This document shows positions 9,814-20,774 of a stretch of DNA of 25,379 nt, piece after piece. The translations under genes and the position numbers were made by a program. The stretch is taken from positions 1-25,379 of the IMG/VR virus record IMGVR_UViG_3300032291_002325. The stretch is one strand, 5' to 3'. Origin of the DNA: a virus. Below the pieces are notes generated by a model. The model had not been told where the DNA came from. It did not search any database and saw only the letters and a program-made list of their open reading frames with translations. How positions within the stretch are numbered: the stretch's first letter is position 1; each line of letters opens with the position of its first letter.

Positions 9814-9849
9814 AGGCCCCCTGTAGGCATTGTAACCTACAGGGGGCCT
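9814..9849 (-). promoter_or_regulatory. Strong hairpin covering the connector ribosome site
   Basis: On the minus strand the arm GGCCCCCTGTAGG is followed by the loop TTACAATG and the arm CCTACAGGGGGCC, a perfect 13-bp stem plus one flanking A-T pair. No U-run follows, so it does not look like a standard intrinsic terminator. The 3' arm contains the only plausible ribosome site (AGGGGG) of the connector gene starting at 9808. It separates the highly expressed capsid/decoration genes from the tail genes, so it may limit tail protein translation, process the mRNA, or cause partial termination. Confidence 0.7.
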
Positions 9850-10596: not shown

Positions 10597-11685
10597 TCAG
10601 GCGTTGGTGAGAACGCCATGGGCGTTGAGGCGGGAGGTGGTCAGCTGGAGCTTGGCGCTCACGGTGGCCACGTAGACCGGGGCGCGCGGGTCACGAACGA
10701 ACTCGCTCACCGAGATCAGGGCCGGGCCGTTGTTCACGCCGAGCTTCTTGCGGGCCGCAGCGACACCACCACCCTGGAAGGTCGCCACGTTCACACGCAG
10801 GTACTTCGAGGAGAGCATGTAGGCGTCGATGAAGTCGGTGCCGACGCCACCCGCGTCCGCATCGAAGCCCATGCGGGCGTCCACGAACAGCGCCATGCCG
10901 TTGTAGACCGGGATCTCCTGTTGCAGGGTGCCGAAGCCCAGCTTCTCCAGGCTCAGGTACTGGATCTTGGTGTCCACCAGACCAGCGAGCTTGTTGAAGA
11001 ACTCCTCGGAGCAGATGCAGACATCGGGGTTCATGCCGCTCTGCGCCCGGATGCCGGTCATTACGTTGCGGACGTCAGCCTCGGTCAGGGTGCCACCAGC
11101 GGAGTCGAACTGGGAGAACCAGCCGAAGTCACGGAAGGCGGTCTGGCTCAGGCCGAGCACCGTGTTGGTCTGGGAGGCGCGGGCGACGCCCTGGAACCAG
11201 CCGGTGGTCGAGCCGATGCCGTTCAGGCTCTCCAGGGAGGTGAACCGGCGGGCGGAGGGAGCCGCGGCGCCCTGGAGCACGCTCAGGGAGATGCGGTCGC
11301 TCATGTCCTCAACCACGTTGACCACGCGGTCCTGGAGGAAGTCCACGGCGCCCTCGGAGCTCATGGCGTTGAGCTCGCTCTCGGAGATCCGGATCGGCTG
11401 GAAGAACTCGGCGTAGTCCGCGGTCGCCTTCTTCTCGATCAGACCCACGGTGGTGTCGAGGTCGGCGTAGGCATCGGCACCGGTCAGGATCTCGGTGGCC
11501 TGGGAGTGGTAGCCGAGGGACACCGGCTGGATGATGGACTCACCACCACCCTTGATGACCTTGATGCTGTTCGGGGCGGCACCGAAGGCCCTGAGCACGT
11601 TGTTGGCAGCGAAGGTGGAATCCTCGGCCTGCGCGATGAGCAGGGGGAGGACACGGTTGGCGATCGAAGAGATCGGCGTGGGCAT
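10597..11685 (-). CDS. Major capsid protein (HK97-fold type)
   Basis: This 362-residue protein has the sequence style of HK97-fold capsid proteins of short-tailed phages: KGGGESIIQPVSLGYHSQA (about 45-63), ADLDTTVGLIEKKATADYAEF (E-loop/P-domain region), and a long spine-like helix around EGAVDFLQDRVVNVVEDMSD (about 108-128). Its position, after scaffold and before cement protein, is the standard one. The start ATG at 11685 is preceded by GAGGTG (TTGAGGTGCTACCATG). A 312-nt untranslated region lies upstream, with a candidate -10 box and repeated hairpins, the longest non-coding stretch in the window. This fits separate, strong control of capsid synthesis. No protease gene is seen between portal and capsid. 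Confidence 0.88.
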   Translation of the reverse strand: MPTPISSIANRVLPLLIAQAEDSTFAANNVLRAFGAAPNSIKVIKGGGESIIQPVSLGYHSQATEILTGADAYADLDTTVGLIEKKATADYAEFFQPIRISESELNAMSSEGAVDFLQDRVVNVVEDMSDRISLSVLQGAAAPSARRFTSLESLNGIGSTTGWFQGVARASQTNTVLGLSQTAFRDFGWFSQFDSAGGTLTEADVRNVMTGIRAQSGMNPDVCICSEEFFNKLAGLVDTKIQYLSLEKLGFGTLQQEIPVYNGMALFVDARMGFDADAGGVGTDFIDAYMLSSKYLRVNVATFQGGGVAAARKKLGVNNGPALISVSEFVRDPRAPVYVATVSAKLQLTTSRLNAHGVLTNA

Positions 11686-11808: not shown

Positions 11809-11814
11809 ATTATA
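11809..11814 (-). promoter_or_regulatory. Candidate -10 box for the capsid transcription unit
   Basis: TATAAT on the minus strand in the context GGTTATAATTATGG is a perfect match to a sigma-70 -10 hexamer in an otherwise GC-rich region, about 125 nt before the capsid ATG. No convincing -35 hexamer precedes it. A similar GGTTA[CT]AAT motif occurs upstream of other genes in the window. Confidence 0.45.
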
Positions 11815-11853
11815 ACCAGACTTAATGGGCTGACCCCCTGGGGTGCAATTGGG

Positions 11854-11911
11854 TGTGTTAGCTCACACATGATAACTCGAATCTCCTTATAAGAAGAGAC
11901 CCGAGTTATCA
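11854..11911. repeat. Hairpin-plus-palindrome element, copy 1
   Basis: On the plus strand a 16-bp near-palindrome, TGTGTTAGCTCACACA (11854-11869), is followed directly by a 42-nt stem-loop (11870-11911): arm TGATAACTCGAATCTC, loop CTTATAAGAA, arm GAGACCCGAGTTATCA. The two arm mismatches (AA opposite CC on the plus strand) become G-U pairs in the minus-strand RNA, which is the sense of the capsid operon. The stem is therefore intact in that transcript. Confidence 0.9.
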
Positions 11912-11939
11912 TTAACTGCTCCGCGCCACAGCCTCTATA

Positions 11940-11997
11940 TGTGTTAGCTCACACATGATAACTCGAATCTCCGTAGAAGAAGAGACCCGAGTTATCA
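11940..11997. repeat. Hairpin-plus-palindrome element, copy 2
   Basis: This copy has the same 16-bp near-palindrome TGTGTTAGCTCACACA (11940-11955) and a 42-nt stem-loop (11956-11997) with arms TGATAACTCGAATCTC and GAGACCCGAGTTATCA and loop CGTAGAAGAA. It begins, on the minus strand, immediately after the scaffold stop codon, giving stops TGA TGA TAA. It differs from copy 1 only in two loop bases (plus the spacer between them) and stands 28 nt from it. Confidence 0.9.
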
Positions 11998-12903
11998 TCA
12001 GCTCTTGGCGATGGCCATTATTTCAGCTGCCGACAGGGACCCTACGGGCTTGCGGGGGTGCGCAGAGGAGGGCGCACTGTTGCCCTTGGCTGCCGCTTGG
12101 GTCTTGCTAACAGCTGCCACCTTCGCAGCATTCCTGGCCCTGGCTTCGGCCTGCAGGCGTTCAGTCTCCGCCTTCGAGCGCCGGGCCACGACGACGGTGT
12201 ACGCATCGTCAAGGTGGATGAACCTCCCCTTGGCCTGCGTGCCCTGGATGAGGTCAGCCACTTCAGCCTGCATGGTCTCATCGGAAGCGAAGTCAGGGTG
12301 GGCTTCGATCCAAGAGTCCAGCTCGGCCTCCTTGCGGGCAACAGCCTGGGCCTTGGATTCAGCCTCGCGGGCGGCCTTCAAGGGGGCGAGCTCAGCTTCC
12401 AGGAGGGCGCGGGCCTCCCTCTGGGCCATTGCCCTCAGAGCATCAGCGTCCCAGGGGTCAATGGGCCCCGCAGGGTCAGGCACCTTGGCGGGCCCCGCGG
12501 GGTGCCCCGCAGGGAGCGCAGCTGCAGCAGCACGCAGGGCCTTGGCCTCGGCCAGCATCGCTGCGGCCTCCTGTCGCGCCTGTGCGGCCTCCTGGGCCTT
12601 GCGGGTGGCGTCGGCCTGGATCCGCTTGGCATGAGCGGCAAGCTCGCCCTGACCAGCGTCTTCCAGAGCCTTCAGGGATGCAGCCCAACCGAGCTTGGTG
12701 CTCGGCACAGGCCCCACAGGGGGTGAAGGCTCGGCGGGGGCCACCGCTTCGCGGGGTTCAGGCTCGGACCCTACGGACTCTTCGGACTCCACCTGCTCCG
12801 CACCCCCTTCGGGGGGGGCTTCGGGAACAGAAGTGTCTTCAGAGGTCGCGGGTTCGGGCATGTCTGCCGCGAGGGCGAGGATATCGGGTCCGGTGCGGAA
12901 CAT
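11998..12903 (-). CDS. Capsid scaffolding protein
   Basis: This 301-residue protein is acidic at the N-terminus (residues 15-60, Glu/Pro/Ser-rich) and then forms long Ala/Glu/Arg/Gln helices (about 75-130 and 150-205) with coiled-coil character. It ends in a basic tail (AKGNSAPSSAHPRKPVGSL, about 273-291). An acidic front, helical rod and basic C-terminal capsid-binding tail are the classic scaffold layout. It sits directly before the major capsid gene. The start ATG at 12903 abuts the stop of the upstream gene (TGAATG). The region HPDFASDETMQAEVADLIQG (about 203-222) is a globular insert also seen in phage scaffolds. The stop runs directly into repeat copy 2. Confidence 0.85.
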   Translation of the reverse strand: MFRTGPDILALAADMPEPATSEDTSVPEAPPEGGAEQVESEESVGSEPEPREAVAPAEPSPPVGPVPSTKLGWAASLKALEDAGQGELAAHAKRIQADATRKAQEAAQARQEAAAMLAEAKALRAAAAALPAGHPAGPAKVPDPAGPIDPWDADALRAMAQREARALLEAELAPLKAAREAESKAQAVARKEAELDSWIEAHPDFASDETMQAEVADLIQGTQAKGRFIHLDDAYTVVVARRSKAETERLQAEARARNAAKVAAVSKTQAAAKGNSAPSSAHPRKPVGSLSAAEIMAIAKS

Positions 12904-13365
12904 TCAGATGGCTCCCATGAGGGTTGAACGGCGGTTCATCATCGACTTGGCGGGCTCGACTATCTCATCTTCATCTTCAAGAGGCAGACCTTCGCCCCTC
13001 ATGATCAGCTCCTGGGTGTCCTCATCCTCGGGGAGCTCGACTTCACCGGAGATGAACTCCATGAAGTCCTCATCGCGGATCAGCTCTTCGAGCATCGAGA
13101 CGAGCATCATCGGGTTGGTGGACTCCGGGTCAATCGGAGACTCGCCCTTGGACTCTCTGAAGGCGTTCATGGCAGTCAGGGCAACGGCGAAGGCCTGCAT
13201 AGCCTGACCACGAGCGATGGCCTCACCAACGATCTTGGACGCCAGGGCAAGCGAGGCGGCTTCGACAGCCTTGCGCTCCGTGGGACGCATCCCATCCATC
13301 ACGGGGCCGAGCTTCTCCATGAGGTCCATCTCGACCTCAACCTCGGCTTCCTTGGCCGCTTCCAT
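12904..13365 (-). CDS. Small acidic protein between portal and scaffold
   Basis: This 153-residue protein is Met/Glu/Asp-rich and mostly helical, with a central segment MRPTERKAVEAASLALASKI and an acidic C-terminal half (EFISGEVELPEDEDTQEL, then LPLEDEDEIVEP). The frame stays open further upstream (to 13515), but that part overlaps the portal gene and has poor composition, so I start at the ATG just after the portal stop (13365). That ATG has no clear ribosome site. An alternative is ATG at 13329, preceded by GAGGTCGAG. It occupies the slot often taken by a second scaffold or head-completion protein. I do not recognise its family and assign no function. Confidence 0.65.
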   Translation of the reverse strand: MEAAKEAEVEVEMDLMEKLGPVMDGMRPTERKAVEAASLALASKIVGEAIARGQAMQAFAVALTAMNAFRESKGESPIDPESTNPMMLVSMLEELIRDEDFMEFISGEVELPEDEDTQELIMRGEGLPLEDEDEIVEPAKSMMNRRSTLMGAI

Positions 13366-13369
13366 GAGC

Positions 13370-14974
13370 TTAGGCGGGGGTGAGTTCTTGGGGCTCGATA
13401 TCAAGGGGCACCTCTTCAGTGGGGACGGGCGTGGGGCGGGCGGGGAGGGCCAAGAAGGCTTCTGGGAGGTTGTAGGCCCGAACCATGGCTTCGAGAATCG
13501 CAGCGGGCGGGACACCGAGCTGGGCCAGGGTCGGGGTCAGCCGCTCAAGATCCTGGCGCTGCTGGAAGATAGAAGCGGGGGTGTTGGCCCCGTCCACCGC
13601 CACGAAGCTGTAGTCACCTTCGAGGTCCTTGGCAGACAAGAGCTTCGGGCCAAGCGGGCGAGGGAGGGACACAGCCTCCACGTCGTCCCCAAGCATGACC
13701 CGAAGCAGGGCTACGGCACACTCAGCGGCCTGGGCCACCGCCTGTGCCAGGGTGCTGGCCATCTTGCCGAGCTTGGTGTCTGCGTAGGCCGCGAGCTGGT
13801 TGACCTCAGTCGCGGTGGCCTTGGATGCCTGACCGAGCGTGAAGCCGGGCATCATGCTGGCCTTCTCAAGATCCTGAAGCAGCGACGCCTTGTAGTTAGG
13901 CACGTCCGCCGGGACAGGCAGAAGCGGGAGCGGGACAAGCGTCTCACCCAGCGGCACGTCACCCATTGTCTGCGGCGTGATGACCGTAGAATCCTCGCCG
14001 CCTTCGAGCGCAAGCCTGCTCGCTTCATCGAGAGTGTCCGGGCTGCACATGTAGAGACGACGGGCCTTCTTCGCCATCAGGTCCTGGGCGGAACTGACGT
14101 CGTTCAGACTCTGAAGCTGAGGGCGGTTCACCCCTATGAAGCTCAGGCTCGCTTGGGGATCGAGGGGGTCGGGGTTGAAGTTGAGCGGGATGACTGGAAC
14201 CAGGGGGCTGCCAGAGGAGGAATAGAGCATCCCGTCGATGCGTTCCACAAGAGCCGCGTTCTGCTCTTCCTGGTCCTCCACCCTGCCACCGACCTGAATC
14301 TCTTCACCTTCGTAGACCCACTTGTCCCCGTTGAAGTCGGGCGACCATACGACCTGCCGTCCCTCCAGGGGCAGCCACACATCGACCACGGTGACGTACT
14401 TCTCACCGGCCGGGGAGAGCCCATTGGAGGACACGTCCCAAGTCTCAGTCTTGGGGTGCGGCATCCAGTCCCCAATGCTGGTCCCGCTGTAGTCCGCGAG
14501 GGCTTGGTCAAGCGGGATCTCGGTCAACAGACCTATGTAACGGCTGGACCCCCAATCAAGCGCGTCAGCATCCCGGATGACCCTCCAAGCATGGGCAGGG
14601 AGAACCCGAACCCGGTCCATGGGGTTGCGGGCCTTGACCGGAACGACAACGAGATAGGCGCCTGGGAACACCAAGGCGCTCTTCACCGCGTTCTCGATGG
14701 AAGCGTTGGACTTCCGCAGGATCTCGTTGGCGCACGCAGCGGCAAGCTCTGGGCTGCCCTCACCGTAGACGCCTGGGACTCCGATGACCGACGGGGACCG
14801 GAGAAACAGGGAGCCGACCAGGGACTCGACCATCTGGAAGGCCACCGGCACCGGGGTGCCTTCTCCACCGTTGCGGTAGAGATTCAGGTCATTCTGCAGC
14901 TCATCGGTGCGAGAAGACCAGTGTTCCCGGTGCGCATCGTAGATGGGCTTGAAGGATTGTGGGGTCATGGGCAT
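13370..14974 (-). CDS. Portal protein
   Basis: This 534-residue protein immediately follows the large terminase and has portal-like features. These are an N-terminal helical segment (FKPIYDAHREHWSSRTDELQ, about 8-27), a wing region with VPVAFQMVESLVGSLFLRSP (about 46-65), and a long C-terminal helical stem/crown region (SKATATEVNQLAAYADTKLG, about 383-402) followed by many Ala/Gln helices. The portal forms the dodecameric ring through which DNA is packaged and ejected. Start: ATG at 14974 with GAGGG upstream; a second Met two codons later is possible. The motif GAGGGTTACAATC lies 20-33 nt before the start, inside the end of the terminase gene. The C-terminus is Pro-rich (PARPTPVPTEEVPLDIEP). 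Confidence 0.85.
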   Translation of the reverse strand: MPMTPQSFKPIYDAHREHWSSRTDELQNDLNLYRNGGEGTPVPVAFQMVESLVGSLFLRSPSVIGVPGVYGEGSPELAAACANEILRKSNASIENAVKSALVFPGAYLVVVPVKARNPMDRVRVLPAHAWRVIRDADALDWGSSRYIGLLTEIPLDQALADYSGTSIGDWMPHPKTETWDVSSNGLSPAGEKYVTVVDVWLPLEGRQVVWSPDFNGDKWVYEGEEIQVGGRVEDQEEQNAALVERIDGMLYSSSGSPLVPVIPLNFNPDPLDPQASLSFIGVNRPQLQSLNDVSSAQDLMAKKARRLYMCSPDTLDEASRLALEGGEDSTVITPQTMGDVPLGETLVPLPLLPVPADVPNYKASLLQDLEKASMMPGFTLGQASKATATEVNQLAAYADTKLGKMASTLAQAVAQAAECAVALLRVMLGDDVEAVSLPRPLGPKLLSAKDLEGDYSFVAVDGANTPASIFQQRQDLERLTPTLAQLGVPPAAILEAMVRAYNLPEAFLALPARPTPVPTEEVPLDIEPQELTPA

Positions 14975-14987
14975 GGGCTATATTCCC

Positions 14988-16529
14988 TCACTTGGATTGT
15001 AACCCTCGCAGAGCGCGGACTCGGACGGCACGTTGGTGCGGGGTCAGGGTGACACGGCGATGAGAGGGTGGGGCGTCCCTTAGCGCTACGGCACCCAAGG
15101 CGTGGGCCATAGCCAAGTCATCGTGCATCCCGGCTGGTGCCTCTGGGTTCTTCTTGCCTTCTGGCACACAGAGCGCGGCCAATTCCATGTAGCTTGCTTG
15201 GCACGTCGCCACGAGCAGATTGTTGGCTATCAGTGACCTCAGGGCAGCGTGGGCCTCTTGTTTCGAGTCCGCAGTGGTCGTCCAGGGTTTGTAGTCACGG
15301 TGCCACAGTGCTCTGTACCCGACCTCCTTCAGGCGATCTATAACCGGCCCGCCGAAGCTGTTGGACTCAACAAGCACGAAGGCCCCGTTGTACATGCCTC
15401 CTATCTCGGCTACCTTGCGGGCGAAATCCAGGGGCTTAATCTGGTTGGACCGGAAGGTGGCCACGACAGTCTGCAGGGTCACTGAGTACACAACGATGGT
15501 CGAGTAATCGTTGCGGACGCCTCCCCCGATGTCCACCCCCATGACGTAGCCCTCGTGCTCCTTGGGCTGTTCGAGCTGGCAGAGTCTGTTGGGGGAAGAC
15601 GCAACGCGGGCAGTGACCTGGCCAATCTCGTCTGGTTCGTACCATGAACCGGTTCTGGCCAGGAAGCATTCACTCGGCTTGGCTGGATAGTCCACCCTGA
15701 ACCGGAAGTTGCCGGGCTCTCCAGCTTCAGTGAATTCGGCTATCTTGGCCCTGCGCCAATTCAGCTGTTCATTGTCGAGGCCAAGCTCCTGTGCGAGTTC
15801 CTCTTCCTCGGAGGTCGGCTCCCAACCTTGTGGGACAGTTAGGCGGTGCGCGGGTGAAGAGTGCCACCAGACGTCAACTATGCACCACTCTCCGGGTTCG
15901 GGTGGGTCTGCTGGGTCCCAGGTCTTGGCCTTGCTGCACAGCTCGTGGAACTTATCGAATGGCCGGTTCGGGGTGGACTCAATGAGAACCCGACCTCTCA
16001 GACCGCCAAGGGCCATCAACATCCCGACCGGGTCTTGATAGTAGGCAATCTCAGACAGGTGGGCGCCACGGAACACCATGCCCCTGACCCCATCGGCGTG
16101 CCCAGCTGTGGCAGATATGGAAGAGGCCCCGGTGTCTTGGAGCTCTGTGCGCCCTATGCTGGACTTCTTCAGCTTCCGTCGCAGAAGTGGATTCAGCTTA
16201 GACAGGTGGTCTATCCACATGGCGTCGAGCTTCCTAAGCTCCGCCGAGACTGCAGCCACGTGGGCAACGCACACATAAGTGTGTGGGTTCTGGGTGCGGA
16301 GGAATTCCCTCAGGAAGTAGGCCCGGCCTGCGGTAGAAGCCCCAATCTGTCGAGCCTTCCTGACGATGACCTTGGCCTCTGGTGAATGGTCCAGAGCATC
16401 GAAGATCATCTGCTGTTCAAGGCTGGGCCGGAATGGGACAAGCTCTCCGCTGGTCTTGTCCACAATCTTCAGTAGCCCAGCGAACTTGCGCATGGGGACA
16501 AGGTCCCAGATACCGACTGGCGCGTTCAA
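14988..16529 (-). CDS. terL: Terminase large subunit (ATPase and nuclease)
   Basis: This 513-residue packaging motor protein has a Walker A-type loop VRKARQIGASTAGRA (residues 56-70), in which R-Q-x-G-x-S/T is the terminase form. Its Walker B is MVFRGAHLSEIAYY (151-164), with the acidic E160. A coupling motif is seen at VLIESTPN (181-188). The RNase H-like nuclease has acidic residues in YVMGVDIGGGVRNDYST (D333), VLVESNSFGG (E388) and GMHDDLAMAHALG (D470/D471). The length is normal and both domains are complete. It starts with TTG at 16529, overlapping the stop of the sigma-like gene (TTGA), as two other genes in the window do. It cuts concatemers and drives DNA into the capsid through the portal encoded next. 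Confidence 0.93.
   Translation of the reverse strand: MNAPVGIWDLVPMRKFAGLLKIVDKTSGELVPFRPSLEQQMIFDALDHSPEAKVIVRKARQIGASTAGRAYFLREFLRTQNPHTYVCVAHVAAVSAELRKLDAMWIDHLSKLNPLLRRKLKKSSIGRTELQDTGASSISATAGHADGVRGMVFRGAHLSEIAYYQDPVGMLMALGGLRGRVLIESTPNRPFDKFHELCSKAKTWDPADPPEPGEWCIVDVWWHSSPAHRLTVPQGWEPTSEEEELAQELGLDNEQLNWRRAKIAEFTEAGEPGNFRFRVDYPAKPSECFLARTGSWYEPDEIGQVTARVASSPNRLCQLEQPKEHEGYVMGVDIGGGVRNDYSTIVVYSVTLQTVVATFRSNQIKPLDFARKVAEIGGMYNGAFVLVESNSFGGPVIDRLKEVGYRALWHRDYKPWTTTADSKQEAHAALRSLIANNLLVATCQASYMELAALCVPEGKKNPEAPAGMHDDLAMAHALGAVALRDAPPSHRRVTLTPHQRAVRVRALRGLQSK
14995..15007 (-). promoter_or_regulatory. GAGGGTTACAATC motif before the portal gene
   Basis: The minus-strand 13-mer is identical to that at 3990-4002, here inside the last codons of the terminase gene and 20 nt before the portal ATG. 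A candidate promoter -10 box or other operon-boundary signal; no -35 hexamer is evident. Confidence 0.4.
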
Positions 16530-17023
16530 TTCTTCTTGCCCTTCCCTGCCGCTGCGGGTGCGCGACCTCGCCGGGGGGCCAGCAGGGCCTCTATCCCCAT
16601 CACCTCTGCTGCAGCGACCTGTTTGGCCTGAAGAAGAGACTCGGGGTTGCCACTCGCCTTATCTTCGGGGTCAATAATTCCCCCTCCTTCGGGGGATTCA
16701 GGGTCTGCCCCTGCTGGGCCAGGAGGTAGAGGCTGGGTTGGCTCTGGTTGGCGACGACCGAGCTTGCTGACCCAGCCAGTGGTGACCATGGTGACCCAAG
16801 TGCTGAACTTGGACCTCGTTGGGTCGAATCCACTGTTGGTGTTCTGCTGCAGATGCAGAATGTAGGCCGTCAACTCCTGGGTCACGTCCTCATAGGACCA
16901 CTCAGGTCTGTACTTCTTCGCGCTGGCAATCAACCCCGCCTTGTAGGCTATCCTGGTGATCTCATTGTTGAGGATGGCCACCTGGAGCCTGTAATCGGAA
17001 TCCTTGCCATGGCGTGAGTTCAA
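16526..17023 (-). CDS. Sigma-70 region 2-like protein
   Basis: In this 165-residue protein, residues about 43-91 read YEDVTQELTAYILHL, then GFDPTRSKFSTWVTMVTTGW, then VSKLGRR. This closely follows sigma-70 region 2 (DL-x-QE, then FDP-x-x-x-x-FSTW/Y, then a basic helix), which binds the RNA polymerase clamp and the -10 element. The C-terminal half (about 92-165) is Pro/Gly-rich, then helical, and ends in a basic tail; no region 4 is visible. Start: TTG at 17023 with AGGTGG seven bases upstream, overlapping the stop of the upstream gene (TTGA). It could be a phage sigma subunit that pairs with a separate region 4 partner, or an anti-host factor using the same fold. Its place next to terL suggests control of late genes. 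Confidence 0.7.
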   Translation of the reverse strand: MNSRHGKDSDYRLQVAILNNEITRIAYKAGLIASAKKYRPEWSYEDVTQELTAYILHLQQNTNSGFDPTRSKFSTWVTMVTTGWVSKLGRRQPEPTQPLPPGPAGADPESPEGGGIIDPEDKASGNPESLLQAKQVAAAEVMGIEALLAPRRGRAPAAAGKGKKN

Positions 17024-17505
17024 GATTCCACCTGATCCATGAGGAGTTGTGCGAGTTGGGCCACTGCTGGGTCAACGGGTTTGACTCCAGTCTTATTGGC
17101 GGCCTCTGCCAGTGCCCTTCTGTGAGCCCTTCGGTCTTCCACCACGTACTTGGCGACTTCCACCCGGGCTCTGCTTGGGTCCTTGTCCTTCAAGCTGTCT
17201 CTGAGAGCCTGCATGGCGGGCGCGAGCAGGTCCTCCATCTGGTGCTCTATATCAGTCAGTGGCACGTTGAGTGCCTGGGCCAGCGGGTTGGTGGATGGAG
17301 CTGGAGGAGGAGGAGGTGACTTGGGCTCAATGCCAGCGGTCAGAGAGGTGAACGCGGTCGAGTGAATCTCGTGGGTCCGCCATGTGTGGCCACATTCCGG
17401 TTCAGTGCACTTGCGGATTCGGTGCACCGTCCCATCAGTGAACTTGTCCGCCGCGTATGTGGCGTGAGTTCGGTGGCTGTAGGTTCCGCACTTGGGACAC
17501 TGCAT
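17020..17505 (-). CDS. Zinc-ribbon protein (Ogr/NrdR-like N-terminus) with small-terminase-like C-terminus
   Basis: This is a 161-residue protein. Residues 1-48 form a four-Cys ribbon: CPKC (C3, C6) and CTEPECGHTWRTHE (C33, C38), with THATY and VHRIRKC between. The layout CPxC, then R-x-x-x-C, then C-x-x-T-x-x-T-x-E is shared by Ogr/Delta late activators and NrdR repressors. A Pro/Ser linker (62-75) leads to a helical C-terminus (80-161). Its phrase LLAPAMQALRDSLKDKDPSRARVEVAKY resembles the 'A-x-x-x-L-x-x-x-L-x-D-x-D' helices of some terminase small subunits. It is first in the late operon, two genes before terL, where a small terminase might be expected. Both readings are inference: DNA-binding late regulator, small terminase, or both. 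Confidence 0.6.
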   Translation of the reverse strand: MQCPKCGTYSHRTHATYAADKFTDGTVHRIRKCTEPECGHTWRTHEIHSTAFTSLTAGIEPKSPPPPPAPSTNPLAQALNVPLTDIEHQMEDLLAPAMQALRDSLKDKDPSRARVEVAKYVVEDRRAHRRALAEAANKTGVKPVDPAVAQLAQLLMDQVES

Positions 17506-17565
17506 TGGCTACTATCCGTTATAATGGTTGGGGATAACCTACCTCATAACCTTAGGATATCATAA
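17506..17565. promoter_or_regulatory. Divergent control region between late operon and plus-strand genes
   Basis: This 60-nt gap separates two outward-facing regulator-like genes. On the plus strand it contains TATAAT at 17519-17524 (context CCGTTATAATGG), about 42 nt before the GTG start. On the minus strand it contains TATGAT near 17564-17559 and two direct AGGTTAT repeats (AAGGTTATGAGG and TAGGTTATCCCC) 12 nt apart, which could be an operator. No -35 boxes are convincing. Confidence 0.5.
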
Positions 17566-18156
17566 GTGTCTGACTCTCGCCACTGCTACGCGTGGACAGA
17601 TGAAGACACTAAGGCCTATTGGTCAGAAGTCGAGAGAGAGAAGGAATTCGACCGCAGGGGCGGGAGGGCTTCCATATACGAGCCCCACTGGGACAAGATC
17701 CCTGACTGCTGCTCCGCACATGAGGGGCAGCTGTCCTGCTCCAGACACTTACCAGAGCTCGTGTACTTCAGGTCAGTGGTCATCCGGAGAGCCTTGGGCT
17801 GCCTTCCCTTGCGTGACAAGGAGACCCTCGGCGTTGCTATGTCCAAGAGAGGAGGACGCAACGGAGACGGCAAGGACTGCGCCCGGCTGGTCGGGGTCGG
17901 GCAGACCACTTGGGTGGAGCGCATGAACGTTGCTGAGCGCCGACTCAAGATAGTGATTGGGATGATGGACGAGTTGGGCGTCCGAAGCAGGAAGTCTGTC
18001 GTCAACTCAAGCAAGTGGCCACAATCTGTGTCTGCCTATCTTGACTGTTGGAGCACTGCAGGCGCTGCGAACATTCTTGGGATGAGACAGTCAACCGTCT
18101 ACTATCACCTGAAGAAGACCCCGGCTATCTTGTACATCCTGAATCGCTGGAGGTGA
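17566..18156 (+). CDS. Helix-turn-helix transcription regulator (sigma region 4 / ArpU-RinA-like)
   Basis: In this 196-residue protein, residues 79-130 (CLPLRDKETLGVAMSKRGG, then GDGKDCARLVGVGQTTWVERM, then AERRLK) follow the form of sigma region 4 and ArpU/RinA-type regulators: a 'LP-x-R-[DE]-x-E-x-L' helix, then a helix-turn-helix with V-G-V-G-Q-T-T at the turn. A second candidate helix-turn-helix is at 163-185 (STAGAANILGMRQSTVYYHLKK). The N-terminal part has Cys/His residues (C7, C48, C49, H52, C58, H61) that could bind a metal. The GTG start at 17566 has AGGA eight bases upstream. It faces away from the sigma-region-2-like operon. A role in late or middle transcription is inferred; target and partner are unknown. 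Confidence 0.65.
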   Translation: MSDSRHCYAWTDEDTKAYWSEVEREKEFDRRGGRASIYEPHWDKIPDCCSAHEGQLSCSRHLPELVYFRSVVIRRALGCLPLRDKETLGVAMSKRGGRNGDGKDCARLVGVGQTTWVERMNVAERRLKIVIGMMDELGVRSRKSVVNSSKWPQSVSAYLDCWSTAGAANILGMRQSTVYYHLKKTPAILYILNRWR

Positions 18157-18284
18157 GGGCTTGTCGTTAGGTCTTCTATAGAATTGCGTTAGTTACGAGA
18201 GCGAGTTATTAGTCCCACATATGAATGAGTCCCGCGCGCTGCAACGCCGGGACTCTGGCCGAACCCCCCTACACGAGGTCTGAC
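18157..18284 (+). promoter_or_regulatory. Leader with hairpin before the 682-residue gene
   Basis: This 128-nt gap holds a stem-loop at 18228-18254: AGTCCCG pairs with CGGGACT, plus an inner 3-bp extension after a bulge. It is followed by the ribosome site GAGG and ATG at 18285. No U-tract follows, so it is not a clear terminator. An AT-rich stretch (18175-18225) could hold a promoter but no hexamer pair is convincing. Confidence 0.45.
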
Positions 18285-20333
18285 ATGAACAACATAGCCC
18301 ATCCGGCCCCTTCTGTCAATAGTCCTTACGATCCGGACCTCAACAGATTCGGGCTCAATCAGCACAGCCTGATAGGGTTCCGAGACGGAAGCGGCCCGGT
18401 TCAGTTGGTCAGTGTCGAGGACATTGTCCAGAACCCGGACAGATACGAGTGCAACGGTGAATGGAAGACCCTGAAGTCTGGGTGCCCGTTCCACCGTCAC
18501 GGCTACAACTCCAAGAACGGTTCTCTTCAGTTCACGGTGGACGCCGAGTCTGGAAGGTTCACCTACATATGTAGGGACCCCAACCACGAGCACCCCGGTG
18601 CTAAGGACAGGAGGGACTCGTTCGGCAACCCCTACTGGATGTACCACGTTCACTGCTCTCGCCACTCCTCCGGCCGCGGCGAAGCAGTGGTTGACCGTGG
18701 GTGCTTCGCATACATAGAGGTCAAGTCCTGGGACAATGAAGCTCAGATAGTTCTGTCCAACTGGATGAACCAGTCTGGTGTGCAACAAGCCTCGGTGTAC
18801 GTGGACGCGAAGCGCACCGTCAACCGTGTCTACTTCCGCAAGGCCAAGGATGGAGAGTACGCGGACGGTTATCTGAACGCTGACGAGAGTTCAGGGGTCA
18901 GGTTCGTAGCCTCCACCAATAAGGTCAAGCTCCCCGACGAGTCTGGTTGGCGCAAGAGTGGTGGCTGCCCCGAGTACACGTCTGCAGGTGTGCTGCCTTC
19001 ATCCCTGTGGAACAAGTCCATCGTCCCTTGTGTGGGCGAGAAGCTGAGCAGCAAGGACGGCCAGCCCAAGAAGCCCAAGCAGCAGTCGAGTGTTGAGGGA
19101 TTCCGCCGCAACTACACCGACAGGATGGAATCTGTTGGTGAGCGCGAGGCTCGCTCTTCCTTCAAGAAGGGTGACGGTCACTCCCGTCTGCTGGATGGGA
19201 TTGAAGGTTTCGAGCCTTCCCCTGAAGACAGCAGGTCTGAGGCGGAACAGCTGGCCCGAGCCATCCACGAGTACAAGGACCGCGTGTGGAGTGTTAGGTG
19301 CAAGCGAGCCCCGACCCTCCTTACTACGTGGAACAAGGGCGGGGTTGGCAGTAGCAGTCACACTAAGCTGACCTGTTGGCAGGCTTCCTGTGAAGACTGC
19401 AGACCCTTCGTCCTTGGGTCACTGGCGAGTGCTGTTGAGGTTCACCTTCTGTCTCTCTTCCGTGCTGGGGCAACAATCTCAATGTACAGGGCGCCCCTGG
19501 AAGTCCACACCAATGGATATACTAAGCTCTCCCTGAATAGGTGGTCGAATGATTCTAAGACCGATGATAATGGGGGGTGTGTCAGCTCACACATGATAAC
19601 TCGGGTCTCTTCTTCTACGGAGACCCGAGTTATCATCGGAAATGACTGGATAGGCCTGAAGGCCCACGGAGAGGTAGTATATTTCTTCTGCCGCAACCCC
19701 GATGCGGGAGGCAACAAGAACCTCGTCCCCACTGTTATCGCTAAGAATGGGGTTCCCCATCTTGGTGGGACCGTTAGGAATGAGGCCGACATTCTCGCCA
19801 CCGTGTCAGTGATCTTGGACGCGAAGCACATGCAGACCGCAACTGCAGAAGAGTTGAACGGCGACCTGCTGTTTGGGCCCAGGTCCACTGTCTCCAAGAT
19901 CAACAAGCTCCGTCAGTCCATCACCGGCCGGGGTTCTTCTTCTGCCCCGCAGGGTGCGCAGCAGCAGCAGAAGAAGGAGCGTCGTGAGAAGGAAGGGGTC
20001 GAGGACTTCCAGTCTATCCCGGTGTATGGCATCGGAGGGTTCTTGGAGGAGCTCTCCGACACCGTGGAGACCACCATAACTATGGAAGACCCTACTGGTG
20101 GTGGCCTGTTCACCAAGAACAACAGGGGTGGTGTCCACATGCCGGGGGTCAACACCACCTTCGTCGCCAATAGCGCCGTGGACAAGGGCAGGCTGAAGAA
20201 GGGAACCCCCGGTCACAAGAGGGGCGGAAGCAAGAAGCATCAGGAAGAGGTGACGGAGCTCCAAACGAGCATAGACTCGGCTCTGGATGGTGGTCACAGC
20301 GTCAAATACTTCACCCCCGGGAGTGTTGGTTGA
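18285..20333 (+). CDS. Cys/His-containing protein of unknown function, carrying repeat copy 3 in frame
   Basis: This 682-residue protein starts at ATG 18285 (GAGG six bases upstream); an ATG 20 codons earlier has no ribosome site and lies within the hairpin region. Residues 67-103 contain CPFHRHG and, 20-odd residues later, YICRDPNHEH, a C-x2-H/C-x4-H arrangement reminiscent of CHC2-type primase zinc fingers but not a match to a classic primase. A second cluster (339-372) has VRCKRAPTL, LTCWQASC and CEDCRPF, reminiscent of replication initiators. Residues 560-585 are Gln/Lys/Glu-rich and the C-terminus is Gly/Lys-rich. Residues about 432-451 are encoded by the repeat element. The codon use looks alike before and after it. 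A nucleic-acid role is possible; I do not recognise the family. Confidence 0.75.
   Translation: MNNIAHPAPSVNSPYDPDLNRFGLNQHSLIGFRDGSGPVQLVSVEDIVQNPDRYECNGEWKTLKSGCPFHRHGYNSKNGSLQFTVDAESGRFTYICRDPNHEHPGAKDRRDSFGNPYWMYHVHCSRHSSGRGEAVVDRGCFAYIEVKSWDNEAQIVLSNWMNQSGVQQASVYVDAKRTVNRVYFRKAKDGEYADGYLNADESSGVRFVASTNKVKLPDESGWRKSGGCPEYTSAGVLPSSLWNKSIVPCVGEKLSSKDGQPKKPKQQSSVEGFRRNYTDRMESVGEREARSSFKKGDGHSRLLDGIEGFEPSPEDSRSEAEQLARAIHEYKDRVWSVRCKRAPTLLTTWNKGGVGSSSHTKLTCWQASCEDCRPFVLGSLASAVEVHLLSLFRAGATISMYRAPLEVHTNGYTKLSLNRWSNDSKTDDNGGCVSSHMITRVSSSTETRVIIGNDWIGLKAHGEVVYFFCRNPDAGGNKNLVPTVIAKNGVPHLGGTVRNEADILATVSVILDAKHMQTATAEELNGDLLFGPRSTVSKINKLRQSITGRGSSSAPQGAQQQQKKERREKEGVEDFQSIPVYGIGGFLEELSDTVETTITMEDPTGGGLFTKNNRGGVHMPGVNTTFVANSAVDKGRLKKGTPGHKRGGSKKHQEEVTELQTSIDSALDGGHSVKYFTPGSVG
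19578..19635. repeat. Hairpin-plus-palindrome element, copy 3, inside a coding sequence
   Basis: The near-palindrome TGTGTCAGCTCACACA (19578-19593) is followed by a 42-nt stem-loop (19594-19635): arm TGATAACTCGGGTCTC, loop TTCTTCTACG, arm GAGACCCGAGTTATCA, a perfect 16-bp stem. Compared with copy 2 the loop is the exact reverse complement relative to the palindrome, yet both read TTCTTCTACG along their own transcript. The coding frame passes through as CVSSHMITRVSSSTETRVI, avoiding the TGA TAA present in another frame. Confidence 0.92.
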
Positions 20334-20364: not shown

Positions 20365-20394
20365 TAGCACCTCCTTAAATATAAGGAGGTGCTA
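20365..20394 (+). promoter_or_regulatory. Hairpin that buries a perfect ribosome site behind an anti-Shine-Dalgarno mimic
   Basis: The arm TAGCACCTCCTTA (20365-20377), loop AATA and arm TAAGGAGGTGCTA (20382-20394) form a perfect 13-bp stem. The 3' arm is the ribosome site of the gene at 20397 (AAGGAGG, seven bases from ATG). The 5' arm includes CACCTCCTTA, the sequence of the 3' end of bacterial 16S rRNA. Translation should be blocked while the stem is folded. No U-run follows, so a terminator role is less likely. Confidence 0.85.
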
Positions 20395-20396
20395 CA

Positions 20397-20774
20397 ATGT
20401 CGCACTCAAGAGCAGTGGTTCAACAGACTCTGGCCAGCTACAGTGGGGCCAAATGGCGTGAGGTCAAGGGGGACAAGGAGGGACTGAGGTTTGGAGAGTT
20501 CAGGAGTCAGACCTATCCTTCAGGACCCGTTGAACACATAGCGATGCTCCACGTCGGTCTTCTCTCCGAAGATGAAGTGGGCAGAGAAGCTTACGACCAA
20601 CAGTTCACCGCCCAGTTGACGGTTGTATGGGACCGGTCCACCAAGCAGATGGAAGTCCGTTCCGAGCCCCGTCGGTCGGGAATTACGGGCAAGAGGCTCT
20701 CACCCTCGGGCGAGCTCTCTTATCTGACCAGAGAATTCGCACGCCGCTTCGAAGCCAAGATGAGGAGCTAAGAT
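20397..20774 (+). CDS. Hypothetical protein, 124-125 aa, under hairpin control
   Basis: This protein of about 124 residues has no recognised family. It is a mix of charged helix and strand: KWREVKGDKEGLRFGEF (19-35), QFTAQLTVVWDRSTKQMEV (69-87), and a basic C-terminal helix SYLTREFARRFEAKMRS. There is no membrane segment and no Cys. The coding frame ends at the stop at 20769-20771; the few bases after it lead directly into the next start. Its start has a full AAGGAGG, entirely hidden in a 13-bp hairpin, so it is probably made only under certain conditions or when the upstream mRNA is opened by a ribosome or helper. Soluble and basic; function unknown. Confidence 0.7.

Follow-up and report, generated by a model that had tools for sequence, protein, structure and literature searches.

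The phage genome analysed here was found to carry three copies of a 59-nt unit, composed of a near-palindrome joined to a hairpin, which we read, with about an even chance of being right, as a short, dispersed, non-autonomous palindromic repeat (MITE/REP-like) that may have spread recently within the phage lineage. Repeats of this kind are well known in bacterial chromosomes and rare in compact phage genomes. The time of insertion of this one is bracketed, as two sister phages have it and the capsid leaders of six close relatives lack it. With copies beside the capsid promoter and another in frame within a gene, it offers a small, testable case of the origin, movement, tolerance or co-option of such an element.

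The window (the whole stretch of DNA analysed, 25,379 bases of IMGVR_UViG_3300032291_002325) belongs to a small tailed phage whose minus strand carries the terminase, portal, capsid and tail genes, with a few genes of early type on the plus strand. The record closest to it, IMGVR_UViG_3300043394_000375 (28,471 bases), hereafter termed the sister phage, shares 95-97% identity with the window over the longer aligned blocks, with shorter blocks ranging from 76% to 99%. This record is probably a nearly complete, circularly permuted genome, because its two ends overlap by approximately 148 bases at 96% identity. Six further relatives (L009-L014) were identified to possess capsid proteins that are 93-99% identical, and no prophage with the capsid gene was found in a collection of approximately 85,000 species genomes. 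The features concerned are the following:

10597-11685, minus strand: gene for the major capsid protein (phrog_9953, E 2e-10); copies 1 and 2 lie upstream of it.
11809-11817, minus strand: late-promoter-like motif of the capsid gene, GGTTATAAT.
11854-11869, minus strand: near-palindrome of copy 1, reading TGTGTGAGCTAACACA on that strand.
11869-11912, minus strand: hairpin of copy 1, 44 nt, with 17-nt arms, loop TTCTTATAAG and two G-U pairs on minus-strand RNA.
11940-11955, minus strand: near-palindrome of copy 2.
11955-11998, minus strand: hairpin of copy 2, 44 nt, directly after the scaffold stop codon (TGA TGA TAA), loop TTCTTCTACG.
11998-12903, minus strand: gene preceding the capsid gene, scaffold-like from its position, without a family match.
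18225-20333, plus strand: 702-codon gene holding copy 3, under purifying selection.
19562-19571 (approximate), plus strand: CCGATGATAA, which repeats the right end of copy 3 (TTATCATCGG) in inverted orientation.
19578-19593, plus strand: near-palindrome of copy 3, TGTGTCAGCTCACACA.
19593-19636, plus strand: hairpin of copy 3, 44 nt, with a perfect 17-bp stem and a 10-nt loop; core inverted with respect to copies 1 and 2; in-frame reading MITRVSSSTETRVI.

Each unit (11854-11912, 11940-11998 and 19578-19636) consists of a 16-bp near-palindrome (TGTGTnAGCTnACACA) and a 44-nt hairpin (17-nt arms, 10-nt loop), with one A common to both, and on the minus strand every unit reads as ATGATAACTCGGGTCTC, a 10-nt core, GAGACCCGAGTTATCAT and GTGTGAGCTnACACA. 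Copies 1 and 2 share 97% identity across the 59 nt (self-comparison, E about 1e-21), differ in their loop sequences (TTCTTATAAG and TTCTTCTACG, respectively) and both have TT replacing CC in the 3' arm of the hairpin (minus-strand reading). In copy 3 the hairpin core was found to run the opposite way with respect to the palindrome (on one strand, CGTAGAAGAA instead of TTCTTCTACG), although the palindrome stays on the same side of the hairpin. A covariance model (cmsearch) identified exactly three places in the window and three in the sister phage, with zero matches among the other relatives. Comparison of flanks by eye and by local alignment revealed no target-site duplication or terminal repeat common to all copies. 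A first-pass annotation of the window had described a three-copy palindrome-plus-hairpin element at these places, and all three copies were recovered by cmsearch. The hairpin arms, given there as 16 nt, are 17 nt, and the stem-loop is perfect in copy 3 and imperfect on the plus strand in copies 1 and 2. Furthermore, the fixed pairing of palindrome with hairpin that it proposed overlooks the inverted core of copy 3, and its description of the repeats as non-coding is wrong for one of the three, copy 3 being coding sequence.

Copies 1 and 2 are situated 86 nt apart, between the scaffold-like gene and the capsid gene. In the six relatives, a conserved TGGTTA and the rest of the leader follow no more than approximately 20 nt after the upstream gene's stop codon, with the two units and about 60 further nt being absent. 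As the site is empty in six relatives so similar in their capsid proteins, the leader units are taken to be an insertion. Tandem duplication of an 86-nt leader segment was considered and rejected, the similarity between the spacer and the scaffold tail not being above that of shuffles. Between the two phages the leader units differ once, by a double change (CC/TT) in copy 2, which is too few for a claim of selection. Two tandem differences of the CC/TT type were noted between the sister phages, at 19561-19562 and 11966-11967, both beside or within the repeat.

For the gene at 18225-20333, comparison of the window with the sister phage gave dN 0.007 and dS 0.060 (dN/dS about 0.12), with 29 of the 46 substitutions at third codon positions. 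Given this third-position bias and a dN far below dS, the gene is considered real and copy 3 is thus predicted to be translated, as HMITRVSSSTETRVI. With the core in either orientation, the hairpin's sense strand stays open in the frame of the gene. Copy 3 is identical in the two phages. No relative of this gene was found besides that of the sister phage, and hence copy 3 has no version lacking the insert for comparison. The searches revealed no initiator motif or family match for the gene product, and AlphaFold2 on two sequences returned a mean pLDDT of 28, the fold being unusable. A 10-nt inverted repeat (CCGATGATAA and TTATCATCGG) extends past the unit at copy 3 only, with a match like it being seen at about 4e-5 of window positions. 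A frameshift signal at the GGGGGG before copy 3 was also considered and discarded, as the alternative frames yield no long product.

All three copies lie at orthologous sites in the sister phage, about 4% different, and because they recur at the same places there they are judged not to be an assembly artefact, which the first-pass annotation had named as one way in which it could be wrong. Nor was the unit matched to any known element, such as the host element that it had also allowed for. Its further concern, absence from related phages, applies in part, with the unit missing from all but the closest relative and present in that one. The search it proposed of phage genomes and the rest of this genome likewise returned the window and sister-phage copies and no others. 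No other copy was found in IMG/VR viral contigs (five exact patterns) or in GenBank phages, plasmids or E. coli genomes, and TGTGTNAGCTNACACATGATAA had zero matches in about 85,000 species genomes (one exact pattern); these outside searches were mostly by exact pattern and BLAST, which diverged copies may escape. The palindrome was found in 42 other viral stretches with TGTGTNAGCTNACACA, none of which had a hairpin directly attached, and L036, L037 and L059 have separate hairpins near the palindrome, within an unrelated repeat region. Matches to the hairpin arms elsewhere were to single arms, four of them apparently in one shared coding sequence, and none were accompanied by the palindrome; the same was true of unrelated hairpins with TGATAACTC arms. 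A ten-letter match (TAATAACTCG) at 18202 was at chance level.

The dispersed-repeat reading is preferred because it would account for the inserted leader units, the intragenic copy, the core inversion and the absence of a shared functional context, the three sites being after a stop codon, upstream of a promoter and in the middle of a gene. The unit would have arrived or arisen in the common ancestor of the window phage and the sister phage and then dispersed to three sites: a pair in the capsid leader and a third, in frame, within a replication-side gene. Copying may have involved a fold-back or template-switch step, which would explain the inversion of the core, the 10-nt inverted repeat at copy 3 and the missing target duplication. 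As a secondary consequence, the leader hairpin may now influence how the mRNA is processed or how stable it is, or may insulate the capsid promoter. Against this reading are the low number of copies (only three), the lack of a transposase or RAYT partner among the window proteins searched, the lack of a target duplication or terminal repeat shared by all copies, and the preservation of the leader stems through G-U pairs on the transcript. A more specific proposal, to which we attach little weight, is that of a phage-confined miniature hairpin element able to copy itself by fold-back template switching, without a transposase, and to land in frame; the core inversion and the 10-nt inverted repeat beside copy 3 would then be traces of that switching. 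Of the two functions suggested in the first-pass annotation, a mobile palindromic element fits better, because of the empty leader site, the in-frame copy and the core inverted between copies, while a regulator site combined with an RNA structure was weakened by the promoters and the regulator gene described below.

The motif GGTTAYAAT was identified at four positions in the window (15004, 11817, 9837 and 3999), all on the minus strand and each upstream of a gene, compared to an expected mean of 0.025 in Markov-sampled sequence. It is conserved in the relatives and is very likely, judging from sequence, to be the late promoter core of this phage group. The unit lies upstream of only the capsid motif, with those at 15004, 9837 and 3999 having no palindrome, which argues against the unit being a general late-gene operator. 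A candidate late activator is the zinc-ribbon protein encoded at 17020-17505, with a CX2CX26CX4C pattern read from its sequence and matches to Ogr_Delta (PF04606, E 5.6e-5, below the curated cut-off) and to a transcriptional regulator family (phrog_603, E 4e-9). A helix-turn-helix (HTH) protein encoded at 17566-18156 has only 40% identity to its sister-phage counterpart, compared to 95-97% over most of the genome; as this allele differs while the units are nearly unchanged, the protein is an unlikely partner of a conserved site. The HTH gene is a swapped allele, possibly immunity-related.

These observations bear on whether the unit is regulatory, its palindrome serving as an operator or activator site that acts on the capsid promoter from about -60 and is bound by the zinc-ribbon protein or by a host CRP-like protein (TGTG-N8-CACA), with the hairpin adding termination or RNA processing. 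The centre of palindrome 1 was counted to lie approximately 60 nt upstream of the inferred capsid transcription start, near the usual position of an activator site, and the zinc-ribbon protein is 99% identical in the sister phage and 30-43% identical in relatives without the unit. Late promoters of phage P2 have TGT-N12-ACA sites and depend on Ogr (PMC3931495), but the spacing here is TGT-N10-ACA. Moreover, the three other promoter motifs have no palindrome, the relatives keep the capsid motif without the unit, copy 3 lies within a gene, away from any known promoter or gene start, and the HTH gene is poorly conserved between two phages that share the units. A regulatory role is therefore viewed as possible but unlikely, one at the capsid promoter alone being still conceivable. 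A role at the RNA level is considered doubtful. Here a protein would bind the sense-strand hairpin (for example the 18225-20333 product, whose own message has a copy), or RNase III would cut it, and the replication-side and capsid messages would thereby be co-controlled. The leader hairpins fold strongly on minus-strand RNA, that is, the capsid transcript (-31.5 and -29.8 kcal/mol for copies 1 and 2, versus -24.6 and -20.8 on the plus strand; z about -8 and -6, respectively), and the CC-to-TT change in these copies gives G-U pairs on the capsid transcript and mismatches on the plus strand. In all three transcripts the loop also has the sense orientation. Stem preservation by G-U pairing hints at selection on the RNA, each of these signs resting on one or two independent events; loop orientation amounts to at most two such events and could be due to chance, and the loop of copy 1 differs. 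Against an RNA role, Rfam gave no match above the gathering score, only miRNA-type and other chance matches far below threshold, and family searches assigned no function to the gene at 18225-20333.

A replication or packaging signal appears very improbable; in this reading copy 3 would be an origin-type hairpin within the gene of a replication initiator, with the leader copies as accessory sites. Origins inside initiator genes are known, the gene runs opposite in direction to the structural genes, and relative G002 was observed to have a different gene, primase-like by eye and without a family match (L025:11124-12566), roughly at the place of 18225-20333. However, the gene lacks the features of an initiator in our searches, rolling-circle origins in direct repeat at a distance of 86 nt would be unstable, and relatives do without the unit. 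Least credible is an ordinary host repeat picked up by the phage; phages do carry such repeats, but the species genomes (one exact pattern), plasmids and E. coli genomes searched were all negative. Relative G002 was also noted to carry two HNH endonuclease genes.

Returning to the dispersed repeat, the unit was compared with the closest named systems and is filed only under the broad kind of short dispersed palindromic repeat, because it departs from each of them in a defining property. Rickettsia palindromic elements are inserted in frame inside genes (PMC2229807) and, like the unit, occur both between genes and within protein genes; the gene that contains copy 3 in frame is under purifying selection, with no insert-free version found. 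These elements are 105-146 bp long with many copies on Rickettsia chromosomes, whereas the unit is 59 nt, has three copies in a phage and bears no known sequence relation to them. REP/BIME elements and MITEs (ERIC, NEMIS, RUP) are also short, non-autonomous hairpin repeats within one genome that are able to act in mRNA. The unit shares with MITEs an empty site in relatives (at the capsid leader) and differs in having no common terminal inverted repeats or target-site duplication, the 10-nt inverted repeat being limited to copy 3; it differs from REP/BIME elements, with their many extragenic copies and RAYT transposase, in having very few copies, one of them intragenic, and no such partner. PeSL cassettes of T4-like phages are short phage-borne stem-loop units in intergenic places that contain an early promoter followed by the stem-loop (PMC4503421), whereas the unit has no sigma-70-like promoter inside it, its promoter lies outside and one copy is within a gene. 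SAS/ESAS of Cluster K mycobacteriophages are repeated sequences specific to phages, whose 17-bp inverted repeats are separated by 4-13 nt (PMC3203893); according to that description, ESAS lie with a 13-bp SAS just upstream of the start codons of many non-structural genes, while none of the three units is at a start codon. The P2 Ogr and P4 Delta sites resemble the unit in having a TGT...ACA dyad upstream of a late promoter, and the window encodes a candidate Ogr-like zinc protein, but the unit has a spacing of 10 rather than 12, occurs at one of the four promoter motifs, has a hairpin attached and has one copy in mid-gene.

Two other hairpins of the window were noted. A strong hairpin at 9814-9849 (AGGCCCCCTGTAGG...CCTACAGGGGGCCT) has a promoter-like GGTTACAATG in its loop, is conserved in L009 and L014, and is possibly a terminator and promoter in one structure. 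A perfect 13-bp hairpin at 20365-20394 (TAGCACCTCCTTA-AATA-TAAGGAGGTGCTA) is kept in the sister phage. The gene that starts at 20397 has its ribosome-binding site within this hairpin, whose 5' arm resembles the 3' end of 16S rRNA.
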